Assembly: GCF_002019605.1 (NCBI RefSeq)
Contig: NZ_KV917368.1
Location: 651,809 to 715,808, forward strand
Reading direction: 5' to 3'
Source of the DNA: Alkalihalobacterium alkalinitrilicum
Lineage (GTDB): Bacteria; Bacillota; Bacilli; Bacillales; Bacillaceae_F
DNA: 64,000 nt
Below, in pieces: positions 14,335 to 64,000 of the stretch (the first letter of the stretch is position 1; every line of letters starts with the position of its first letter). The notes under the pieces were generated by a model that searched no databases, had not been told where the DNA came from, and was given only the letters and a program-made list of their open reading frames with translations. Both the position numbers and the translations under genes were made by a program.

Positions 14335-14534
14335 GAATAACCCTCTAAAGAGACGATTGCTTTCAAAGTGGTCGTCTCGTCGCATTTGACTAAATACTGC
14401 GTAGCAAGAGTCTTAACTTTTAAATGGCTTTGTGAAAGAATGTCATTAAGCAAACGAAGCAGTATTTTTGAATAAGACTAGTACAAGAAGATCGTCAATG
14501 TAGACAAATAGATACCGAAATCCCAATGAAAGAG

Positions 14535-14568
14535 GGAAGGCATTGTCTGTTAAACTGCCTTCCTTTTT
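14535..14568 (+). terminator. Hairpin terminator with no intact upstream gene
   Basis: GGAAGGCA pairs with TGCCTTCC and is followed by TTTTT. It follows an AAGCAAACGAAGCAG motif and no gene, consistent with gene loss. The rest of 14335-14635 holds only an AGACGAT...GTCGTCT hairpin similar to that at 43941. Confidence 0.5.
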
Positions 14569-14635
14569 CCTTTGGGGACTAATTGTTTTTTTACTGAGAA
14601 AAATCCGTTTTACTTAAATAATTTGCTCAAATTAA

Positions 14636-52931: not shown

Positions 52932-54953
52932 GTGAACTTGCAATTATCTAATAAACAATTTGAAGTTTTTGATCGTGATGATTTTACATATCGAGTAAGT
53001 AGATCAGATGCAGTTCAAGTAAGTAAAGATTATAGAACGACATGGAATCAGTGGAAGGAACTCGTTACTGAGTTATATAGTAAATATAAAACTAATGGGT
53101 TAGAGGTAGAAGGTACAGAAAATTGGCAGAATAGCGGAAGTCTTTCAAAACGTTTTTGGTCGAGGCTCAAGTTTAATACACGTTTAGATTCATCTTCATG
53201 CATTGCTGCAATGATCAACTTTAAAAACTTTAAATTGTACCTTGAATGGCATAATTATAGGACAAAAGAATCCTCGAATTCAATTCATGATCATAACCAG
53301 TGGATGAATTATATAGAAGAATGGATTACGAATTTTAATATTGATCCTGAGAATTACAAGGTGTGGACCTCATATGATGGAGATCATGATTTATACTATA
53401 GTTTAAAGGATTATTTGAGTACACCACAAATAAGAGAAGACATATTAAATCTCTTAAAAGAAGATCCGAAAGAGTGGGTACGTATTGGAACAGTAATTCC
53501 TAAAGAAAAAGCACTTAAAATAGATGACATTGTTGAATTCACAGAAAGTTACCTAGAAGAGTTGCTTTGGTTATATAGAAAAACGGAACAAAAAACATCG
53601 GTAATTAATGATTATAAAGATGAGTATGACAGTAAAGAACAAAACTACTGGTGGCTCAATTCCAATCCTGAAATTTGGGATCTTCAAAATGTGGACTTAG
53701 GTGTGAAGGAAACTTACACTTCTTATAATGCTAACGGAAATAAACGGAGAGTATACAAACATTTCGAGTCCGTTCAACCAGGTGATCTCGTCATTGGCTA
53801 CGTATCTTCTCCCGTAAAGGAAGTCACTGCGATTTGTGAAATTACGCAAGGTCTTCATGAACGGGAAGAAGAGGAAGTGATTGAGTTTAAAAAGATCGAA
53901 CAGTTAAAAAATCCAATTCCATTAAGTCAATTAAAAAGTGTTCAAGAGCTTGAAAATAGTGAGCCGATGGTCAACAATCAAGGCAGTTTATTTAAATTAA
54001 CGAAAGAAGATTTTGAAACGATTCGAGCAATCATTGATGAGGCGAATGATGCTCCATCGAGTGATCCTGTTTTACCACCGTATACGATCAATGATGCGAT
54101 GGAAGACCTTTTCATGGATGAAGACACTTTTTATGAAATGACAAAGATATTAGATTATAAGAAAAATATAATTTTACAAGGACCCCCAGGCGTTGGAAAA
54201 ACCTTTGTCGCTAAACGCATTGCTTACTTCAATATGGGAGTCAAAGATGAAGAACGTATTCAAATGGTTCAGTTTCATCAAGCCTATTCGTACGAGGATT
54301 TCATCCAAGGTTACCGTCCAAAAACAAATGGTGGGTTTTACCTGAAAGATGGTGTATTTTATCAATTTTGTAAGAAGGCTCAGCGCGATCCAGAACATGA
54401 TTATTTTTTTATCATTGACGAAATCAATCGTGGGAACTTAAGTAAAATCTTTGGAGAACTAATGGTCCTGATTGAAGGTACGAAAAGAGGAGAGGAACAC
54501 GCAATAAACTTAACGTACTCTGAAGATTTATCAGATAAATTTTACATTCCTGACAATCTCTATATTATCGGAACAATGAATACTGCCGATCGTTCACTTG
54601 CCATTGTGGATTATGCTTTACGTAGAAGGTTTGGGTTTATTACACTTGAAACACAATTGGAGAGTGAGAAATTCAGGGAATTCTTACATGAAAGGCTATC
54701 AGACGAAGATCTCACAGAAAAAATTATTCGAAAGTTTAAAGACCTTAATCGAGTAATTCGAGAAGAGGAGAAGGATTTGGCTAAGGGCTTTGAAATTGGT
54801 CATAGTTACTTTGTCCCAACAGATAATGCAACAAAATTAAATGAAGAATGGTATAAAAGAGTGATTCATACTGAAATCGTACCACTTCTTGAAGAATATT
54901 GGTTTGATGATCAAGAAAAAATTCACCAATTCAAGCAAAGGCTATTAGATTAA
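52932..54953 (+). CDS. mcrB: McrB-type AAA+ GTPase with EVE-like specificity domain
   Basis: 673 residues from a GTG start behind AAAAGGGG. After an unrecognised N-terminal part (~1-230), residues ~240-355 resemble an EVE/PUA-like modified-base reader (YWWLNSNPEIW, QPGDLVIGYVSSPVKEVTAICEI). Residues ~395-670 are the McrB AAA+ domain with Walker A GPPGVGKT (~417), Walker B FFIIDEINRGN (~493) and the diagnostic MNTADRS (~549). McrB translocates on DNA that carries modified bases and drives McrC to cut it. mcrC follows after 12 bp. Confidence 0.92.
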   Translation: MNLQLSNKQFEVFDRDDFTYRVSRSDAVQVSKDYRTTWNQWKELVTELYSKYKTNGLEVEGTENWQNSGSLSKRFWSRLKFNTRLDSSSCIAAMINFKNFKLYLEWHNYRTKESSNSIHDHNQWMNYIEEWITNFNIDPENYKVWTSYDGDHDLYYSLKDYLSTPQIREDILNLLKEDPKEWVRIGTVIPKEKALKIDDIVEFTESYLEELLWLYRKTEQKTSVINDYKDEYDSKEQNYWWLNSNPEIWDLQNVDLGVKETYTSYNANGNKRRVYKHFESVQPGDLVIGYVSSPVKEVTAICEITQGLHEREEEEVIEFKKIEQLKNPIPLSQLKSVQELENSEPMVNNQGSLFKLTKEDFETIRAIIDEANDAPSSDPVLPPYTINDAMEDLFMDEDTFYEMTKILDYKKNIILQGPPGVGKTFVAKRIAYFNMGVKDEERIQMVQFHQAYSYEDFIQGYRPKTNGGFYLKDGVFYQFCKKAQRDPEHDYFFIIDEINRGNLSKIFGELMVLIEGTKRGEEHAINLTYSEDLSDKFYIPDNLYIIGTMNTADRSLAIVDYALRRRFGFITLETQLESEKFREFLHERLSDEDLTEKIIRKFKDLNRVIREEEKDLAKGFEIGHSYFVPTDNATKLNEEWYKRVIHTEIVPLLEEYWFDDQEKIHQFKQRLLD

Positions 54954-54965
54954 AAGGTGTATCAA

Positions 54966-56000
54966 ATGGAAATTCCAATTCAGAATATCTATTATATGCT
55001 CTGCTACTCCTGGGACAAGCTTAAGGAAAAGGATGTTGTCGATGTTAGCGGTTTAAATAGTACGAAACTAGTCAACCTTTTTGCTAAAGTATTATTAGAA
55101 GGGGTCAAACATCAGTTGAAACGAGGTTTGGATCGCGGTTATGTCACACAACATGATGAAATAAGAGGGATCAAAGGCAAAATTGATTTTACGAGTTCTA
55201 TCCAAAGCCTTTCGTTTCAACAAGCAAAGGCGTTTTGTACATATGATGAGCTAGAATATAATGTCCTTCATAATCAAATCATAAAAACAACATTACATTT
55301 GTTAACAAGGACTAAGGGGCTAGATGCTATACTTAAAGATGAGATGATAGGCCTTTATCGCCTTCTACGTGAAATAGAAACGATTTCAATAACAAAACAT
55401 CACTTCAACCAAGTAGTGATCCATCGAAATAATCGTTTTTACGAGTTTTTAATCCTTGTATGCGAAATTATATATGATCATCTTCTACCTGATGAAGAAC
55501 CAGGAAAGATGAAGTTTAAAGATTTTTTGCAGGACGAAAAAATGATGCCTTATGTATTTGAGAATTTCATTCGAAACTTTTACAAACATGAACAAACGGA
55601 TTATAAGGTGTTACGGGAAAATATAAAATGGAATGCTGAAGCAGAACAACAAGAAGATCTGGATTATCTTCCCCAAATGCAAACCGACATTACTCTTAGG
55701 TCACCTACTCGTAACCTGATTATTGATACTAAGTTTTATAAAAACACATTTCTTTATAATTTTGGTAAACCAAAAATTCATTCTAAGGATCTCTATCAAC
55801 TTTCTTCTTATTTGTCAAATGTGCAAACACAAGAAGAACCTGGGTACCCGAAGTGGGAAGGAATGTTACTTTATCCAACTGTGCAGCAGAGTGTTACTTT
55901 ATCATATAACTTTCATAGGCACCCATTGTGTATTAAGACAATTAATTTAAATCAAGACTGGGAGTTGATTCATCGAGATTTGTTGTTAATGATTGCATAA
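54966..56000 (+). CDS. mcrC: McrC-type nuclease subunit
   Basis: 344 residues from the ATG at 54966, chosen over the GTG at 54957 because AAAAGGTG lies 7 bp before it. The C-terminal PD-(D/E)XK nuclease motif is visible as TDITLRSPTRNLIIDTKFY (~240-258). The N-terminal IPIQNIYYMLCYSWD and GLNSTKLVNLFAKVLLEGV are typical of the McrC family. It forms the endonuclease with McrB. Its 3' end and the next gene have been duplicated to 25 kb. Confidence 0.92.
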   Translation: MEIPIQNIYYMLCYSWDKLKEKDVVDVSGLNSTKLVNLFAKVLLEGVKHQLKRGLDRGYVTQHDEIRGIKGKIDFTSSIQSLSFQQAKAFCTYDELEYNVLHNQIIKTTLHLLTRTKGLDAILKDEMIGLYRLLREIETISITKHHFNQVVIHRNNRFYEFLILVCEIIYDHLLPDEEPGKMKFKDFLQDEKMMPYVFENFIRNFYKHEQTDYKVLRENIKWNAEAEQQEDLDYLPQMQTDITLRSPTRNLIIDTKFYKNTFLYNFGKPKIHSKDLYQLSSYLSNVQTQEEPGYPKWEGMLLYPTVQQSVTLSYNFHRHPLCIKTINLNQDWELIHRDLLLMIA

Positions 56001-56077
56001 TCTCGGGATATTAAAGAAAGTCCTACAAGTAGGGAATGATAAAAGCGGTAGAATTAGAATTATAGAAGGAGTGCACC

Positions 56078-57085
56078 ATGCTAATTCCTGTAAATATTAA
56101 TCATCACGGAATTCAAGATAGTGAGGCTGAATTAATAAGATTGACTTTTAAAGAACTGGGGATCAAGGAAAACGATATCGAAAACTATTTGAAGCACAAC
56201 TTAGATCTTTTAGTGGGTGATGAGGAAAGTCTTCTTATTGTAGGCCAGCAAGTTCGAAACAAGCAAAATGGTAGAAGTGATTTAGTAGCGGTAGATGAAA
56301 AAGGAAATCTGGTGTTAATTGAAATTAAAAGAGACGTTGAAGACATACGAAATCGAAAAGAACCGTTCGAAATTCAAGCCATTCGTTATGCAGCGAATTA
56401 CGCTAAAATTCAATCAAAGGATCAATTAGTCAATGATGTTTTTGTTCCTTATTTAGAAAAGCAAAAAGGAACGAGTGACTCGGTGTTAACGACGTCAGAA
56501 AGAGCGAGAAGAATTTTAACCAATTTTCTCGTGCAAAATGAAGCTGGTCAAGCTTTTAACCGTAAACAACGAATGATCCTCGTAGCATCTGAGTTTGATG
56601 AACAAACTTTGTCCGCTTGTGCTTGGTTAATAAGCAATGGGGTAGATATAAGTTGTTTTACGATTGAGCCTGTAAAGTTAAATGAGCAGTATTTATTAGA
56701 TATCACAAAAGTACTACCAGTACCACACCTCGAAGATTTCTATGTGGAAGTTCAAGAAAACCATAAAGTCCGTAAATCATCTAATACAGTTCCAACAAAC
56801 ACTTCAAAACAATTTCTACCACGTATGAATAAGCTGTTTGATTGGGGACTGCTACGCTCAGGTGACGAAATCATCATTAAGAACTTTGAAGACTCTACTG
56901 CCATTGCGTTAAATGAAAAAGAAGTCGAATATCAAGGTAAAACAATGTCCTATAACCAGTGGGGACAAACCGTCACTAGCTGGAGCTCAATTAACATCTA
57001 TGAATGGACCATTGCAGTGGGCCAGACGAAAACGTTACATGATTTGAGGTTAGAGAAGATGAGGATGGAAGAAGAAGAAGTGTAG
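56078..57085 (+). CDS. NucS/DUF91-like PD-(D/E)XK nuclease (copy 2)
   Basis: 335 residues. The nuclease core is GRSDLVAVDEKGNLVLIEIKRD (~65-86). Start by AAGGAG before the ATG and by agreement with copy 1. It lies 77 bp after mcrC with a conserved GTCCTACAAGTAGGG element between them and no terminator, so co-expression with mcrBC is likely. It may be an accessory nuclease of the modification-dependent system. About 95% identical to 25277-26284. Confidence 0.75.
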   Translation: MLIPVNINHHGIQDSEAELIRLTFKELGIKENDIENYLKHNLDLLVGDEESLLIVGQQVRNKQNGRSDLVAVDEKGNLVLIEIKRDVEDIRNRKEPFEIQAIRYAANYAKIQSKDQLVNDVFVPYLEKQKGTSDSVLTTSERARRILTNFLVQNEAGQAFNRKQRMILVASEFDEQTLSACAWLISNGVDISCFTIEPVKLNEQYLLDITKVLPVPHLEDFYVEVQENHKVRKSSNTVPTNTSKQFLPRMNKLFDWGLLRSGDEIIIKNFEDSTAIALNEKEVEYQGKTMSYNQWGQTVTSWSSINIYEWTIAVGQTKTLHDLRLEKMRMEEEEV

Positions 57086-57258
57086 TAATATTGTGGTGAA
57101 GGAATAACTCAAATAGCTGACCTTTGTCTACTTGAAAGGGTAACCTTTTTCGAAACTTTACATAATATAAGTTACTGTTGCCTAAAGATTTACTTATCGA
57201 ACTAAAGTTAATAATATTGCTTTAAAGTGATACATAATTAGTAACTTTAATTAAATTC

Positions 57259-57296
57259 GGTACCTATTTAACTTATCAATAAATAGGTACCTTTTT
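57259..57296 (+). terminator. Terminator after the mcrBC/nuclease group
   Basis: A perfect GGTACCTATTTA/TAAATAGGTACC stem followed by TTTTT. The gene-free stretch 57086-57561 holds nothing else recognised. Confidence 0.85.
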
Positions 57297-57561
57297 CTAT
57301 TTTAATCTACATTTTTTAACAAATTTGGTATAATAGGCATATAGTCACAGAAGAGATAAGTGATAATGTGGTACTACTGTCCCTAAATCCATCCGAACGA
57401 ATTCTAACGCAGTGAACGAATTTTATTTCAAACACTGAAAAACTAATTGCCAAATGATTATATTATCTACTACAACCAGAAAACAAAGGGTTTCAACCAG
57501 ATTTGCTCATGTGTTTCTGTACTAATGCTATTATTCTATTAAACTCGGAAGGTTGATCCAA

Positions 57562-58299
57562 GTGGAGTTTTTAATTCCTATAATAATTCTAACCATCATA
57601 TTTGCAATGTTCAAACCACAAATTAAAGGATTTATCGGTGAGAAAACCATCGCAACTTTTCTATCACAACTAGATAAAGAAAAATATATAGTCATTAATG
57701 ATGTTGTTCTTAATGTTGCTGGTAAAACCTCACAAATTGATCATGTGATCGTTTCAAACTATGGTGTTTTCGTCATTGAAACAAAAAATTATAAAGGTTG
57801 GATCTATGGAGGGGAAAAGAATCAATATTGGACTCAAGTTATTTATAAAAGAAAAGAACGATTTTATAACCCTCTTTGGCAAAACTATGGTCATGTAAAA
57901 GCATTACAAAATGCGCTGATTAATTTTGGTGATATTCCCTATATCCCGATCGTTGTTTTCTCGATTAATGCGACGTTGAAGAAAGTAGAGGTAACGTCAG
58001 ATGTCGTTTACAGTGTGAATTTACTGAAAACGATTAAAAAATATGATCAAGAAACTCTCTCCCAATCAAAAAAGGAGCAAATCATAAACCAGTTAAAAGT
58101 GTTGAACCATCAAAAAGATGGACAGCTTAAGAAACAACATGTTCAGACTATAAAACAAAATCAAAAAACGGCAAAAGAGAAAGTTCAACAAAACATTTGT
58201 CCCAAGTGTGGTAATGCTCTAGTTATTAGAAATGGAAAAGGTGGAACATTTAAAGGCTGTAGTTCCTTTCCGAAGTGTAGATTTACGGCAAATACATAG
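57562..58299 (+). CDS. NERD-domain nuclease with topoisomerase-type zinc ribbon
   Basis: 245 residues from a GTG at 57562, chosen because GGAAGG lies 9 bp upstream; TTG 57553 is too close to it. An N-terminal membrane helix (IPIIILTIIFAMF) is followed by the NERD domain (~20-140) with QIDHVIVSNYGVFVIETKNYKGWIYG, which carries the D and E-x-K of a nuclease-like core. The C-terminal CPKCGNALVIRNGKGGTFKGCSSFPKC is a type-IA-topoisomerase zinc ribbon. Membrane-anchored DNA processing is suggested. Confidence 0.85.
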   Translation: MEFLIPIIILTIIFAMFKPQIKGFIGEKTIATFLSQLDKEKYIVINDVVLNVAGKTSQIDHVIVSNYGVFVIETKNYKGWIYGGEKNQYWTQVIYKRKERFYNPLWQNYGHVKALQNALINFGDIPYIPIVVFSINATLKKVEVTSDVVYSVNLLKTIKKYDQETLSQSKKEQIINQLKVLNHQKDGQLKKQHVQTIKQNQKTAKEKVQQNICPKCGNALVIRNGKGGTFKGCSSFPKCRFTANT

Positions 58300-58314
58300 T
58301 TTAGGAGTGAAAGT

Positions 58315-58494
58315 ATGAGTAGTAAAAAAGATTTAGAAAAATGGATACTAGAAGCTATACATAATAAAAATGGTAGCGCTACACTGATTGAAATTTGTAA
58401 ATATGTTTGGGAGTACCATGAAGATGATTTACGCAATTCAGGTGATTTATTTTACACTTGGCAATATGATATTAGATGGGCAGCAACTCACTAA
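58315..58494 (+). CDS. 59-residue helical protein after the NERD gene
   Basis: The ATG lies 15 bp after the NERD stop with TTTAGGAGTG upstream. The product (KDLEKWILEAIHNKNGSATL, EICKYVWEYHEDDLRNSGDL) reads like the first part of a winged-helix domain and ends in YDIRWAATH. It is probably co-transcribed with the NERD gene. It may be a truncated version of a longer protein. Confidence 0.5.
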   Translation: MSSKKDLEKWILEAIHNKNGSATLIEICKYVWEYHEDDLRNSGDLFYTWQYDIRWAATH

Positions 58495-58844
58495 AATCCA
58501 AGGTGCTTTTTTATAAAGGACGGAATGAAGTTGATATCATTTATTCCTACGGGAACAATTACATAAGTCCGTCTAGCCAATCGACCAATATGGATATATC
58601 TTTTTTCTGGATTTACTTCAAGTGAATATTCTAATACTGAATTGCCATACTGAAAAGCTTGGCATAGTAACACATCAACTAATTTTTAATACAAATATCG
58701 TGAATAACTAGTAGCTAGTAAACTTCGAATTAAACTAATTCGTAAAAATGTTTTAACTTGTGATCTAGAAACTTAGACATACTCCTTATTCCGCTTCAAT
58801 ATAATGGTTGAGTAGTATAAACAATAGAATAGGAGAGATGTTTA
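58495..58844. other. Intergenic region with a minus-strand gene remnant
   Basis: A 60-codon minus-strand frame (58491-58673) reads SVLEYSLEVNPEKRYIHIG and IPSFIKKHLGF. It resembles a genuine C-terminus but has no start or ribosome site, so it is probably a gene tail. The rest is AT-rich and must carry the SGNH-gene promoter. Confidence 0.35.
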
Positions 58845-59591
58845 GTGAGAAAGTCATTTCAGATGGTAATATTATTAATTATCTTCACGTTGTTATTCTC
58901 TAGTGGTGCAATCGCAAAAAGTGATAACGCGAAGAAATCACTTGTGGCATTAGGTGACTCGATCCCATATGGTTATAATCTTGGGAGTAATGAAGAACCT
59001 TCAAGACTAGCGTTTCCTTATTTGATAGGTGAAGAAGCAAATTTAAGGGTTCGAAATTTAGCTGTCCCTGGGTGGAAAACGGAAGATATGTTAAACGCAC
59101 TACAAAACGATCAGAAATATCGACAGGCAGTTAGGCATGCAGATTATATTACTTTGAACATTGGAAGTAATGATTTATTATTAGCTTTACAAATTGCTAG
59201 TAGTCAATGTGTTGATCAGATCCAGTTTCAACAGTGTTTATTTGAAATAATTGGAGATAGTGCTTTTTTTACTAATCTTAATAAAATTTTACATGAAATT
59301 AATTTACTGTCAGATGCACAAATTGTAGTTTATAATATTTATTATCCTTTTAGAAGTGATGATCCAATACGAGGTCATCTAAATCACGTTGGTTTACAGG
59401 TACTACCTAGTATAAATGATCAAATTGCTAGTATTTCATTTAATAAGGCGAGTATAGCAGATGCTTTTAACGCTTTTGTTATTGGTTCGGATAATCCAGG
59501 GGCTAATGTAATATTGGGCGATATCCACCCTTCGATTGAAGGGCATCAAGTACTTGCAGATATAGGATTAGAAGGTTTAGGTTTTAAATAA
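58845..59591 (+). CDS. Secreted SGNH/GDSL-family hydrolase
   Basis: 248 residues from a GTG start behind AGGAGAGA. An N-terminal signal peptide (~1-24) ends near GAIAKS. The catalytic blocks are GDSIPYGY (block I, Ser ~39), NLAVPGW (Gly of block II), GSND (block III Asn) and DIHPS (Asp and His, ~227-229). It is probably an extracellular esterase or lipase acting on lipids or polysaccharide acetyl groups. It stands alone between the defence island and the tRNA. Confidence 0.9.
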   Translation: MRKSFQMVILLIIFTLLFSSGAIAKSDNAKKSLVALGDSIPYGYNLGSNEEPSRLAFPYLIGEEANLRVRNLAVPGWKTEDMLNALQNDQKYRQAVRHADYITLNIGSNDLLLALQIASSQCVDQIQFQQCLFEIIGDSAFFTNLNKILHEINLLSDAQIVVYNIYYPFRSDDPIRGHLNHVGLQVLPSINDQIASISFNKASIADAFNAFVIGSDNPGANVILGDIHPSIEGHQVLADIGLEGLGFK

Positions 59592-59601
59592 TTTTGTTAG
59601 A

Positions 59602-59625
59602 GGCGCTCACAATGAGCGCCATTTT
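59602..59625 (+). terminator. Terminator after the SGNH hydrolase gene
   Basis: A perfect GGCGCTCA/TGAGCGCC stem followed by ATTTTATTT. Confidence 0.8.
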
Positions 59626-60080
59626 ATTTATAAGCATAAATATAAATTTCTGTAAATTATATAGGCACCTTGAAAAGAAATTCCCCAGTTATTCCACGTA
59701 TTAAACTAGTTTAGAATTGAAACGATTGTTAAATGCCGTTTAGAGAGCATAAATACCTTTTATACAATTAATGTAAAAGGGATAACAGCTTATCCTTGCC
59801 CATATATCAGAATGAGACACATACTCCATTTAACATTCACATAAGAACAATAGATAAAAAGAATGTCAGAGAGAAATTCAACTATAGCTTTAAAGAGAAT
59901 TTATTGGACCTAATTAATTTAGTATAGGAATAAAAGAAAAGTAAAACATTTAAATAGGCATATAGAAACTATTCTTTTTTTTAGAAATCAGGTGTCCCCA
60001 AACATCAAAGGCAAATCTGAAGCAATTATTTGTCAGACAAGAGGAGATTAGTTCTTCTGAAAAATAAATCCTTTAAAGAT
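59626..60080. other. Intergenic region before the tRNA
   Basis: About 455 bp with no gene and no structured element recognised. CpG dinucleotides are present here, unlike the region after the tRNA. Confidence 0.4.
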
Positions 60081-60165
60081 GGGCTTGTGGCGGAAATGTT
60101 AGGCGCACACGACTCAAAATCGTGTTCCTTCTGGAGTGTCGGTTCGCCCCCGACCACCGGTACCA
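60081..60165 (+). tRNA. tRNA-Leu(CAA), with a mismatched 5' acceptor strand
   Basis: The anticodon stem CACGA/TCGTG encloses the loop CTCAAAA (anticodon CAA at 60115-60117). The variable arm, T-stem GTCGG/CCGAC and 3' acceptor CACCGGT-A-CCA are normal for tRNA-Leu. The 5' strand GGGCTTG cannot pair with CACCGGT (only 2-3 of 7), and the T-loop is TTCGCCC instead of TTCGA. It is best read as a tRNA 3' end kept as an attachment site, with a decayed 5' part, not a working tRNA. Confidence 0.75.
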
Positions 60166-60194
60166 TTTCTACATATGAACACTTGATTTTGTAA

Positions 60195-60222
60195 GGCTTC
60201 CTGCCAATTTGGAAGTCTTTTT
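60195..60222 (+). terminator. Terminator after the tRNA
   Basis: GGCTTCC pairs with GGAAGTC (one G-T) and runs into TTTTT. Confidence 0.65.
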
Positions 60223-60327
60223 ATTGTTTCTACTGCACAAGACTTTTTTAGGCAAAGTCATATTCCTATGGTCATATGTACCCTTTCATAAATATTACCA
60301 ATTTATAATTGAAAGGGAGTTATACAA

Positions 60328-61305
60328 ATGAGAAGAAATAATCAATTATCAATTAATGAGATTGACTTTATTATGGACAATGTGACAAAGGAAGAAATAG
60401 ACTTTGAAGAAGCATTAAAATTATTCCTTGAGGATTGTGAAATTAGGAATTTAAGGGCACATACAACCAAGTATTACAAGAATGAATTGAGTGCCTTTTA
60501 TAAAATTTTAAGGGAACAGGAGATTGACCCTGCCCCACACAAGATTAGAAATGAACATATTAAAAGAAATGTTATTCTTTATTTAAAGGATATAAAAGGT
60601 CTAAAGATTGTTTCAATTAATACTAAGCTAAGAGCAATAAGAAGTTTCTTTAATTTTCTTCATAGGGAAAAGCATATTACTAACAATCCTGTTGAAAACA
60701 TTAAATTATTGAAAGATAGGAAAAGTGCTATGCCTACTTTCTCAAAAGAACAACTATCTGACTTGTTTAAGCAACCTGATTTAAGAACATTCACAGGTAT
60801 TAGGGATTACACAATTATGTCACTGTTACTTGAAACAGGTGTAAGGGCAAATGAGTGTGTAGGCATTTCATTAGGTGATGTAAACTATAATGAATGTACA
60901 GTATTAATTAGAAATGCTAAAGGATATAAAGAAAGACTTGTGCCTATTCAATCCACCATGAAAAATCTTTTAAAGAAATACATTGCAATTAGGGGCACTG
61001 TTAAAACAGATGCCTTGTTTGTAACAATAGATGGAACACCATTAACCAAAAGACAATTACAAAACAGAGTAACTTACTATGGTAATAAAGCCAAGATAAA
61101 AGATGTAAGATGTTCTTGTCACACTTTTAGACATACCTTTGCAAAGCTATCAGTTAAGGGTGGGGCAGATATATTTACTTTACAAAGTATTCTAGGTCAT
61201 ACAAGCATGGAAATGGTAAGAACTTATGTGAATTTGTTTAGTGATGATGTGATGGAGAAGCATAAAGAATTTTCACCATTAAAAAATTTAAAGAGCAGAC
61301 TTTAA
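60328..61305 (+). CDS. Tyrosine recombinase/integrase
   Basis: 325 residues. An N-terminal SAM-like core-binding domain (~20-125) is followed by the catalytic domain (~145-315) with R173 (GVRANE), H265-x-x-R268 (CHTFRHTF), H291 (LGHTS) and the nucleophile Y300 (RTYVNL). The Xer/phage-integrase layout is intact. AAAGGGAG precedes the ATG. Position next to a tRNA-Leu end indicates site-specific integration there. All Arg codons are AGA/AGG and the gene contains no CpG. Confidence 0.92.
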   Translation: MRRNNQLSINEIDFIMDNVTKEEIDFEEALKLFLEDCEIRNLRAHTTKYYKNELSAFYKILREQEIDPAPHKIRNEHIKRNVILYLKDIKGLKIVSINTKLRAIRSFFNFLHREKHITNNPVENIKLLKDRKSAMPTFSKEQLSDLFKQPDLRTFTGIRDYTIMSLLLETGVRANECVGISLGDVNYNECTVLIRNAKGYKERLVPIQSTMKNLLKKYIAIRGTVKTDALFVTIDGTPLTKRQLQNRVTYYGNKAKIKDVRCSCHTFRHTFAKLSVKGGADIFTLQSILGHTSMEMVRTYVNLFSDDVMEKHKEFSPLKNLKSRL

Positions 61306-61503
61306 TTGTACACAGTGTTTAATAATTCATATTTCTTGAAGATATATTTGTTAATATCAATGGTTTAACAAAATAAATTAGTAATTCAACAGAGTTTATA
61401 AATGAATTGGAAGGGGAAACTCTTCCTTTTTTATATTTGAGCAAACAAAGATAGTATTATTTGGTAAAATATGCTTATGTAATAGTTTTAAGGGGGGATG
61501 TAG

Positions 61504-63198
61504 TTGAATTTAAGCAATATACAATCCATTCTAAAAGAGATAGAGCAAGAAAGGTACTATATTCATAACTTTGTTGTTAAAGCACTGAGAATAGCCAAAA
61601 GTAGAAATGATGTTAAAGAGGTTATGTTATTCACAATTAACAAAACTAGCCTTAATGATACTAGCATAAAGAAAGTATATGGGGAAATGAAAGAATATGC
61701 TCTAAATATAGGTTTTTCTGAAGAAGAGCTAAAAATTAAGTTTGCTGAAGTCTGGAATGATGTTTTAGAAATAAGAAAATGTAATTGGTATGACATAAAT
61801 TCAAAAAAGCTACAAAATGGCTATACATTAAATATGTCTGTAAGTGAAATGACAGATTATTTAAATCATATCACCAATTTATTAGAAGGTAATAAGTTAC
61901 CAGGTGGTTTAGCTCCTTTAGACTTATATTTTGAAAATGAAAAAAAGCAACATATTGATAGTGTATATCTTAATCATAAATCAGCTTTGCAGTCAATTCT
62001 AAACAAAATTAGAGACTATATAATTGACTATTTAGTTAGAGTGGAAAGTTATTTAATACAAGTTAAGGAGAGAGAAAATATGAATGTACATGATGAGCTT
62101 TTAACATTAATTGAAAAAGGCTTTGAAATAAAAGAAAAATGCACTGTTAAAAACCAATATGGACTTGATTACATTAAAGGTTCAGATTATGTAGCATGGA
62201 TTGAACAATGCAAAATGTTCATAAAAAAGAATGTTAATGATAATGAAATATATAAAACCTTTTCAGAAATAGGAAAAAGAGCAAATGGACAAGCAGAGAA
62301 TTTTTTTGAAGAAATGATGGGGAAATTACAAGCCCTATTAAATTATGATTTTACAGAGGAAAATATGGGGGTAGTAGAAGAACCGAAAGTTAGTAAAATT
62401 TTTATTAGTCATGCTTCCAAAGATGTTAAGTATGTTGATCTAGTTGTCCAACTTTTAAATGATATTGGAATTAAAAAAAGTGACCAACATATATTTTGTA
62501 GTTCATTAGCTGGGTATGGTATTCCATATGGAGAAAATATTTATGAATATCTTAAAAGTGAATTAAAAAATAGTAATATAATGGTTCTCTTTATTTTATC
62601 TCACAATTACTATCAAAGTGCACCTTGTTTAAATGAAATGGGTGCAGCATGGATTTCTTCTAAGAATTATAATTCAATACTTACTCCTAATTTTGACTTC
62701 AAGCAAATTAGTGGTGCTATTGACCCTTCAAAAATAAGTTTTTACATGAATGACAATGATGGTTTAAATAAATTTAAAGATAAAATCACAGAAATCTTTG
62801 AATTGAAAGAGGTTGACTACAAAATATGGGAGGAAGATAGAAATAAATTCATTGAGAAAGTTAATGAGATAGCAGAAGAAGAAGCATCCAATTTAAATAC
62901 TCAGGTACAAATAGAAAGAATAAAAAAACTTAATGAAAATGAATTAGAATTACAATTGAGATTTGTTAATGTAACTGAACAAGATATAGAATTTAAGTTT
63001 ATTGATTTTGAACTAATTGATAGTAGAGGAAATAAATTAAAAATTTCTGCTGAGGATGATTATTTAGAGGAGTTTAGGCTATTTAATAAGGAAAATAAAG
63101 TTGTAAAATGGGTTTTTAAACTTGATGAGGCTCCAGAATACAACCCTAGAAGAGATGAAGGTAGTCTTTCAAAAGTTTCATTTGAAATTTACCATTAA
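61504..63198 (+). CDS. TIR-domain protein
   Basis: 564 residues from a TTG start behind AAGGGGGG. The N-terminal ~290 residues are helical and unrecognised. A TIR domain follows (~297-430) with KIFISHASKD, HIFCSSLAGYGIPYGENIYEYLKSEL and SAPCLNEMGAAW, where E378 is at the place of the catalytic NADase glutamate. The C-terminal ~90 residues look beta-rich (IDFELIDSRGNKLKIS). Bacterial TIR proteins degrade NAD+ or make cyclic-ADPR-like signals in phage defence. No Thoeris ThsA partner is seen. The gene contains a single CpG. Confidence 0.85.
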   Translation: MNLSNIQSILKEIEQERYYIHNFVVKALRIAKSRNDVKEVMLFTINKTSLNDTSIKKVYGEMKEYALNIGFSEEELKIKFAEVWNDVLEIRKCNWYDINSKKLQNGYTLNMSVSEMTDYLNHITNLLEGNKLPGGLAPLDLYFENEKKQHIDSVYLNHKSALQSILNKIRDYIIDYLVRVESYLIQVKERENMNVHDELLTLIEKGFEIKEKCTVKNQYGLDYIKGSDYVAWIEQCKMFIKKNVNDNEIYKTFSEIGKRANGQAENFFEEMMGKLQALLNYDFTEENMGVVEEPKVSKIFISHASKDVKYVDLVVQLLNDIGIKKSDQHIFCSSLAGYGIPYGENIYEYLKSELKNSNIMVLFILSHNYYQSAPCLNEMGAAWISSKNYNSILTPNFDFKQISGAIDPSKISFYMNDNDGLNKFKDKITEIFELKEVDYKIWEEDRNKFIEKVNEIAEEEASNLNTQVQIERIKKLNENELELQLRFVNVTEQDIEFKFIDFELIDSRGNKLKISAEDDYLEEFRLFNKENKVVKWVFKLDEAPEYNPRRDEGSLSKVSFEIYH

Positions 63199-63240
63199 AA
63201 AACAAAAAAGATAATTAGCAAATAAAAGGCTTTCTTTTTT

Positions 63241-63266
63241 ATACCTCTTTTAAAGGGGTATTTTTT
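63241..63266 (+). terminator. Terminator after the TIR gene
   Basis: ATACCTCTTT pairs with AAGGGGTAT (one T-G) and is followed by TTTTTT. Confidence 0.75.
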
Positions 63267-63343
63267 ATGGATTGGTAATATTTACTATTGTAACTTTCTG
63301 TTATAAAATATGTTTTATAAGGAAATGTAAGGGGAGATGAGAA

Positions 63344-64000
63344 ATGGCTAAAATAGAGTTAGAATTTATTAAGCAGATGTATAATAAATTTAAGAATACA
63401 AATGAAGAGAATATAAAGTTTCATGTTGTTACAAAATTTTTAGAGATGGTAGGATATGACCCATTAGAATTTTATTATGAACATTCTAAGTACCATAAAG
63501 ATGGAAGAGCAGATATTGCAGTTAAAATAGATGAAGTAACATATTTATATGTTGAGGTTAAGCCAACAAACAATAAGTTAAATGAAAAAGAACAAAGTCA
63601 GTTGGCTCAATATTTATTTGATAGAGGGCTATCCTGGGGTATTTTAACAAATGGAAAAAACTTTATTTTGTTTAACTCTAGTATAAGTGTACTCCCCAAT
63701 CCAAATAGACCTTTAATGATTGATAAAGTTGTATTTAATATAGATATCTTTAATAAAAAACATAAAGAGTTAATAGGTTACTTTAGTAAAGAAAGTATAT
63801 ATGAGAACCAAATATCAAACTATTTTAGGGATATAGCAAAATACAAAGCAATTAAATACCCTGATGGTGGTGGGAGTTGGAATGTTTACAAAGGTACTCT
63901 ATATAATTTCTTTAAGTATTATGCACACCAACAGAAAAAATATAGAGAATTAGAACAGATAAGAATAGATGAATTTGAGGATTTTTTAAATTATGATATG
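63344..64000 (+). CDS. PD-(D/E)XK-like nuclease-domain protein, cut by the window edge
   Basis: The open frame of 219 codons from an ATG behind AAGGGGAG runs off the right edge. Residues ~25-115 look like the N-terminal nuclease domain of type I restriction R subunits (HSDR_N-like): KDGRADIAVKID, then YLYVEVKP, then LAQYLFDRGLSWGILTNGKNFILF. The Asp and E-x-K give the active site. From ~165 a helical segment (NVYKGTLYNFFKYYAHQQKK) begins a further domain. It could be a defence nuclease or part of a restriction enzyme. It contains no CpG. Confidence 0.65.
   Translation, partial: MAKIELEFIKQMYNKFKNTNEENIKFHVVTKFLEMVGYDPLEFYYEHSKYHKDGRADIAVKIDEVTYLYVEVKPTNNKLNEKEQSQLAQYLFDRGLSWGILTNGKNFILFNSSISVLPNPNRPLMIDKVVFNIDIFNKKHKELIGYFSKESIYENQISNYFRDIAKYKAIKYPDGGGSWNVYKGTLYNFFKYYAHQQKKYRELEQIRIDEFEDFLNYDM

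Follow-up and report, generated by a model that had tools for sequence, protein, structure and literature searches.

In the genome of Alkalihalobacterium alkalinitrilicum (G000), we analysed a 64,000-nucleotide stretch, G000:C1:651809-715808 (hereafter the window), whose right end carries an integrative element almost devoid of the dinucleotide CpG. The left 3.84 kb of this element, as delimited by composition, lie in the window (60160..64000), and the element runs on to G000:C1:716955 (65147 in window numbering). Its left end coincides with an incomplete copy of tRNA-Leu(CAA) on the forward strand (60086..60168; blastn matches of about 86-93% to tRNA-Leu(CAA) loci), probably the remnant of an attachment site (att). 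We consider this copy incomplete because the match begins about 5 bases inside the tRNA-Leu(CAA) genes of other genomes; ARAGORN detected no tRNA in the window or in locus L003. The intact tRNA-Leu(CAA) of G000 is located elsewhere (L007:8961-9047), where it adjoins an integrase relative with ordinary CpG. Four genes follow in the element. P1 (60328..61305, forward strand) encodes a 325-amino-acid XerC-like tyrosine integrase (Pfam Phage_integrase, 3e-33) and contains no CpG at all; since it adjoins the incomplete tRNA copy, the element can be classed with the tRNA-Leu(CAA) integrase elements. P2 (61504..63198, forward strand) encodes a 564-amino-acid SpbK-like TIR-domain protein (PADLOC spbK, 2e-66; TIR_2, 5.5e-07), which is a probable phage-defence cargo. 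P3 (forward strand), whose 5' part (63344..64000) lies in the window and whose end is at G000:C1:716579, encodes a 475-amino-acid protein combining an HSDR_N_2 nuclease-like domain (Pfam, 1.8e-09) with a degenerate phage-integrase-like domain (Phage_integrase, 0.0023, below its cut-off). P4, a 118-amino-acid GIY-YIG protein (8.8e-05), follows P3 outside the window (L003:5592-5948). Compared with phage satellites, the element has the integrase and is 5 kb long. No att direct repeat was found at its right end, the longest word common to both end zones being 10 bases, and further on 12-base words are shared at unrelated places only; the right end is therefore set by composition alone.

Firstly, we counted CpG in and around the element. 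Between 60166 and 64000 there is exactly one, at 62384..62385 (context ACCGAA, in a CCG Pro codon), against 69.9 expected from base composition (observed/expected ratio, o/e, 0.01). In 2,000 mononucleotide shuffles of this segment, the mean was 69.8 CpG and the minimum 45; when the four element proteins were rewritten with host codon usage (300 draws), the mean was 115 and the minimum 92, for one observed. The whole element (4,987 bp) contains 1 CpG against 91.9 expected. All 2-kb blocks up to position 60000 have an o/e of 0.68-1.30, and the rest of the window is ordinary. An earlier reading of this DNA made from the letters alone (the sequence-only reading) had reported the single CpG and its codon, had put the expectation at several tens and had noted many CpGs before the tRNA; our counts confirm all of these, and the comparison of inside and outside that it proposed shows a clear difference. 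Both borders are sharp. On the left, the last CpG before the element (60158) lies within the tRNA-like stretch; on the right, the depleted zone overruns the window edge by about 1.15 kb, until CpG returns abruptly at G000:C1:716956 (65148 in window numbering). The immediate neighbours are ordinary (0.76 at 58001-60000 and 0.82 at C1:717000-717999). These sharp borders within a CpG-normal chromosome support the proposal that CpG loss belongs to the element. The sequence-only reading had also placed the switch at an att-like tRNA 3' end: the switch does occur at the tRNA-like stretch, but this is an incomplete copy and has no att repeat as a partner on the right.

Secondly, we searched for relatives of the four proteins in 299 genomes of the order per search, counting G000 itself; since genomes were sampled (1,896 genome look-ups, many genomes repeated), prevalences are rough figures. 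P1 has matches in 39 of 299 genomes (E 1e-50), with relatives up to 66% identical, several of them located at tRNA-Leu(CAA) in other genomes. None of the 29 loci returned, of 40 other places matched, was CpG-free (one, L026, is partly masked). Nine relatives examined over 15-16 kb had ordinary CpG, and a tenth, in G270, sits in a 20-kb stretch (L096, G270:C10) that is low in CpG throughout (0.43 overall) and not at one element only. The integrase family was therefore rejected as the cause of the loss. P2 has matches in 5 of 299 genomes at 1e-30. A relative on a Priestia plasmid (54%) and three at 37-38% are not CpG-free; another at 54%, in G147, shows partial depletion (L052:9200-11600, o/e about 0.3, with a CpG-free run of 772 bp) and may be a gene in which CpG has been returning since it left such an element. 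P4 was found in its own genome only (1 of 299 at 1e-15). P3 was found in three of 299 genomes at 1e-8 (G000, G189 and a fragment in G138), each time within CpG-free DNA; in G189, about 1.7 kb alone are CpG-free, in a locus of o/e 1.3. Plasmids (7 records) and phages (2 records) gave partial matches only. A fourth P3 relative, in Anoxybacillus, is CpG-normal, which indicates that P3 does not require the CpG-free state; this HSDR_N protein was thus dropped as a candidate cause, even though its first two relatives lie in CpG-free DNA.

The P3 remnant of G138 led to a larger family. It lies within a 13.6-kb CpG-depleted element that interrupts a gene, and a 338-amino-acid protein of this element, C2, was then searched. 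C2 was found in 5 of 299 genomes of the order and 1 of 299 of the class, and family searches gave 2 of 43 and 1 of 33 (one genome being new). The seven genomes (G138, G275, G218, G277, G010, G455 and G572) represent seven genera and six families, and in all seven C2 lies inside CpG-depleted DNA. The sequence-only reading had suggested a search for related CpG-free elements, and this family answers it: the elements are integrative, carry defence genes and measure about 11-16 kb, while sampled host DNA around them has ordinary CpG. With element extents set by eye at composition borders, we counted 1 CpG against 442.6 expected in G277, 1 against 387.0 in G572, 2 against 300.3 in G218, 4 against 400.0 in G010, 4 against 423.2 in G275 (excluding a 2.6-kb CpG-normal insertion, L076:6538-9116), 24 against 390.8 in G138, 27 against 346.5 in G455 and, for the P3-bearing element of G189, 1 against 31.9. 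The nine elements together (the seven with C2, G000 and G189; 97,136 bp) hold 65 CpG where 2,814 are expected (0.023). The longest CpG-free run in 957 kb of other sequence is 772 bp (loci of at least 9 kb, excluding stretches that contain runs of N and L044, a duplicate locus).

This purge is general within the elements. Relative to expectation, CpG occurs at 0.01 after A, 0.02 after C, 0.02 after T and 0.06 after G. In seven elements, it is at 0.02 in noncoding DNA and the purge holds at codon junctions too; Arg is encoded by 811 AGR and 5 CGN codons. In the comparisons made, the C2 proteins are 22-68% identical, and that elements so diverged are all depleted argues for a state that is old and maintained. 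The insertion in the G275 element, which has a DrmD/BrxL-like gene, keeps its CpG, showing that the state is not imposed by chromosomal place.

C2, present in all seven elements by selection, has an N-terminal helix-turn-helix (HTH). C4 and C5 (HTH) are found in six of the seven elements, G218 excepted, and the replication-like C1 in six, G455 excepted; C6 (HNH), C8 and C0 are each found in four, C0 being a small tyrosine recombinase whose copies in different members share 80-91% identity. The integrase is of the serine type in G138, G010, G277 and G455 and of the tyrosine type in G275, G218 and G572. Phage-defence genes make up most of the cargo: ABC-3C together with HNH in G138 and, by 77% identity, in G277; in G010, an EcoO109I-type restriction-modification (R-M) system and an HNH protein that has its matches among methyl-directed Type IV enzymes; Shedu and a 44% relative of the latter HNH protein in G218; Shedu, by 90% identity, in G572; a C5-methyltransferase in G275; and a PIN protein in G455. 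The G138 element (L012:184-942 and 14341-14574), with its serine recombinase, seems to split a gene whose product we take to be CotJC-like; a split spore coat gene together with a serine recombinase presumably resembles sporulation-excised intervening elements. End repeats of 79, 86 and 50 bp delimit the elements of G572, G218 and G275, respectively, and CpG stops at them: G572 and G218 are bounded at both ends by complete tRNA-Arg copies (CCT and TCT), and the G275 repeat is of tRNA-Arg(TCT). No end repeat longer than 12 bases was found for G138, G277 or G010. We also observed that the three elements located at tRNA-Arg(CCT) or (TCT) (L112, L076 and L077+L082) use AGA/AGG as nearly their sole Arg codons, which are the codons that these tRNAs read. 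No relative of P3, C2, C1 or C0 was found in the viral contigs scanned, and C2 has no match in plasmids or phages; phage relatives of C6 (205 records) and C0 (160 records) are numerous and distant, none reaching 60% identity.

Thirdly, we analysed sites other than CpG in the elements, using a maximal Markov model for the expectation. CpG-less 6-mer palindromes with at least 4 G+C occur 38 times against 144.2 expected (0.26) in the elements, 90 against 131.9 (0.68) downstream of P1-type integrases and 408 against 455.2 (0.90) in hosts; without GGCC, the ratios are 0.24, 0.68 and 0.91. A non-palindromic control gave 1.01, 1.00 and 1.00. GGCC itself is reduced to 9 of 115 (0.08) in the elements, compared with 0.73 downstream of P1-type integrases and 0.84 in hosts, and strong avoidance was also seen for GAGCTC (1/33.9), CAGCTG (1/19.7) and GGTACC (1/12.9). 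GATC is no lower in the elements (0.67) than in the P1 set (0.58; hosts 0.81). Taken element by element, with an order-1 expectation, palindromes are below expectation in nine of nine, G000 (1 of 5.1) and G189 (0 of 1.3) having too few to count alone. Palindromes are thus rare while the control stays flat (0.26 against 1.01), as avoidance of restriction targets predicts, and the disappearance of CpG together with GGCC and GC-rich palindromes, against a flat control, is the signature of restriction. The sequence-only reading had offered selection by DNA-cutting systems as one possible cause, and the purging of GGCC and non-CpG palindromes from the same elements fits it. Surviving CpGs have a context of their own: in eight elements (without G572), 54 of 64 lie in GCG/CGC, against 2,779 of 7,883 in hosts (p 8e-16), the opportunity for this context by single mutation being 28-38%. 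On the coding strand they occur in both orientations (24 GCG, 15 CGC) and the noncoding survivors fit (14/16), so recognition looks to be at the level of DNA, not RNA. Palindromic CpG tetramers account for 8 of the 64 survivors and for 24.9% of CpGs in hosts (p 0.02).

From these results, the best reading, to which we give a probability of about 0.62, is that the window element belongs to a set of CpG-purged, phage-defence-carrying integrative elements of Bacilli, shaped by restriction-driven selection and not by mutation. Strong purifying selection on double-stranded DNA would remove CpG and keep it out, and its most likely agent would be restriction of unmodified element DNA at each entry into a new host. 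Elements travelling widely, between species and through many hosts, would in this way become 'restriction-blank' DNA, free of CpG, of nearly all GGCC and of most GC-rich 6-bp palindromes. We infer that selection is exerted by nucleases encountered during transfer, at least one of which reads CpG as such and prefers sites without a 5' G or a 3' C.

Several observations weigh against this reading. Palindromes, by the same measure, are also below expectation in six phage or plasmid stretches (0.47-0.89, the lowest being a 30-kb phage record with 13 of 27.9) and in 60 kb of the G000 chromosome (0.72), which indicates that a milder avoidance is common. Two elements, G138 (21/24) and G455 (26/27), produce the GCG/CGC skew; the other six together give 7/13. 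The avoidance is not confined to recognition sites: CpG is missing from palindromic and all other contexts alike, and is at 1-6% of expectation after every 5' base, unlike site-specific avoidance. Since no more than a quarter of host CpGs lie in palindromic tetramers, ordinary Type II sites do not explain the loss; removal in every context exceeds any single Type II site and points to a CpG-reading agent, perhaps a poorer reader of GCG. We identified no CpG-specific nuclease. In this order, CpG is kept by other mobile DNA, as seen in P1 relatives and in one case within G000 itself; hence, a CpG nuclease acting throughout the host is by itself ruled out as the cause, and exposure must belong to the elements' own cycle, through unmodified transfer or through a nuclease of their own or of a helper. 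The window element has only P3 and the CpG state in common with the larger family, and C2 has no match in G000 at E 1e-8, which leaves this element outside the C2 family proper. In its 511 bp of noncoding DNA, AG/CT is not raised (0.97). Lastly, CTG/CAG is raised in the elements (1.81, against 1.14 in hosts), so some transitions contributed.

The main rival, which we consider unlikely, is a self-sparing weapon: on induction, a nuclease encoded by the element, or by a helper phage on which it rides, would cut any DNA that contains CpG, hitting host and competitor DNA and sparing the CpG-less element. Such a weapon would account for the fact that these elements alone, and neither related mobile DNA nor chromosomes, are CpG-free, as well as for the purge in all contexts and the survivor context common to two elements. 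Members do encode nuclease-like proteins (HNH, GIY-YIG, HSDR_N and Shedu), and the size and gene style of the elements recall phage satellites. PICI-like (phage-inducible chromosomal island-like) satellites measure roughly 10-17 kb and have an integrase and att repeats. Like these and like defence-carrying integrative elements, ours measure about 11-16 kb and have an integrase, a replication-like gene and phage-defence cargo, with HNH and tRNA att repeats in some; unlike them, they are CpG-free, their core proteins belong to no known family, no capsid or packaging takeover gene was identified in them and no helper is known. However, no recognised nuclease is common to all members, and no helper was found. 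C6, tried as a universal CpG nuclease, was rejected: it is present in only four of nine genomes searched and absent from G010, G455 and the G572 element. C2 was modelled as all-helical at low confidence (two AlphaFold runs, mean pLDDT, the predicted local distance difference test, 54 and 57, too low for a fold search), and its HTH alone bears a weak resemblance to terminase small subunits (E 0.0016). A weapon by itself also leaves the loss of non-CpG palindromes unexplained. It is tentatively conceivable that CpG-lessness serves as a mark of self, a GCG/CGC-tolerant CpG nuclease of the element or helper destroying host and competitor DNA during induction or transfer; if true, any element acquiring CpG would be lost, and discrimination would proceed by absence of a dinucleotide, without DNA modification.

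Helper phages that methylate CpG were also considered. Distant C1 relatives (22-32% identity) are found in phages phi18-2 and Tripp and in plasmid JNUCC32, all with annotated DNA methyltransferases. Among PDB structures, HaeIII comes closest to the phi18-2 enzyme and HhaI to that of JNUCC32, entry 4dkj, which we believe to be the CpG enzyme M.MpeI, being matched more weakly; CpG specificity was not borne out, and this candidate was rejected. Four carriers of distant C1 relatives are CpG-enriched (L090, phi18-2, 1.72; L093, JNUCC32, 1.73; L092, Halobacillus plasmid PL16, 1.53; L091, Tripp, 1.35), the opposite extreme to the CpG-free elements, and two further ones are not (L095, 0.91; L094, 0.62).

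It is improbable that the elements simply inherited their composition from an unsampled CpG-free host lineage, with no present-day selection. The CpG-normal P3 of Anoxybacillus and the o/e of about 0.3 of the P2 relative in G147 look as if CpG returns outside such a regime; on the other hand, seven diverged elements in six families are still purged, two elements in different genera have 90%-identical Shedu cargo in common, and we know of no host with a CpG o/e near 0.01.

Least probable is mutational loss, that is, long residence under CpG methylation followed by deamination of 5-methylcytosine, which the sequence-only reading had proposed together with a test by TpG/CpA excess. Applied to 24,090 bp of noncoding DNA of seven elements, this test gave a CA/TG barely above background (1.00 against 0.94), where we estimate about 1.2 had the lost CpG gone to CA/TG, whereas AG/CT rose to 1.37 (background 1.03). 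As selection also uses transitions, it is only a partial discriminator. Comparing P1 with nine relatives at CpG positions with agreeing amino acids, we counted 149 synonymous replacements, of which 88 are AG and 44 are CA or TG (one site being countable up to nine times across relatives). Many of the AG replacements are Arg codons, which deamination cannot make, and this spectrum already contradicts a mutational origin. For P3 against Anoxybacillus, AG, TG and CA take 6, 5 and 3 of 14 positions, which alone would not exclude deamination. A C5-methyltransferase (PF00145, E 1e-10) is matched in six of nine hosts, and on the element itself in G010 and G275; the other three hosts have no match. 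CpG is the classic target of such decay and CTG/CAG is raised, but the sharp borders within CpG-normal chromosomes and the loss of palindromes without CpG also speak against it.

Adjoining the window element is a CpG-normal defence-like island (52932-58299) encoding an HI_0552+EVE+AAA_5 protein, presumably McrB-like, McrC, a protein with a Shedu match below cut-off and a NERD protein. The McrBC neighbour pointed out in the sequence-only reading is thus real (52.9-56.0 kb, Pfam McrBC 9e-36), but these genes lie outside the element and nothing ties them to the CpG loss.

Avoidance of restriction targets has precedents. In PMC10359461, R-M targets and 6-bp palindromes are under-represented by mutation in plasmids, more strongly in small, broad-host-range ones; the maximal Markov measure is the same as ours and the plasmid form is milder, whereas here a whole dinucleotide is about 98% removed, from coding and noncoding DNA of integrated chromosomal elements. 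According to PMC6286503, prokaryotic viruses eliminate orthodox Type II sites as an anti-restriction measure, a tendency found chiefly in non-temperate phages and markedly weaker in temperate ones; our elements are integrated, yet their elimination is extreme. Neither 'CpG' nor 'dinucleotide' occurs in the main text of PMC10359461, nor 'CpG' in that of PMC6286503. CpG suppression in vertebrate and plant RNA viruses (PMC5659819, PMC7029135) is likewise a selected dinucleotide depletion; here, it concerns bacterial double-stranded DNA and is near-total. No title on CpG-free bacterial mobile DNA was among the matches listed in the open-access literature and no report of the family was found, a scope that does not show absence from print.

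That mobile DNA has lost one dinucleotide almost entirely, and that this state persists in several bacterial families, points to a strong and still unnamed force on CpG in bacteria. Such removal offers a simple key, kilobase-long CpG-free runs, by which a hidden class of defence-carrying elements can be searched for from composition, and it makes testable whether DNA can evade, or wield, a dinucleotide-reading nuclease without base modification. Bacterial DNA that is CpG-free by nature has practical interest as well, for CpG-free vectors are otherwise made by design.

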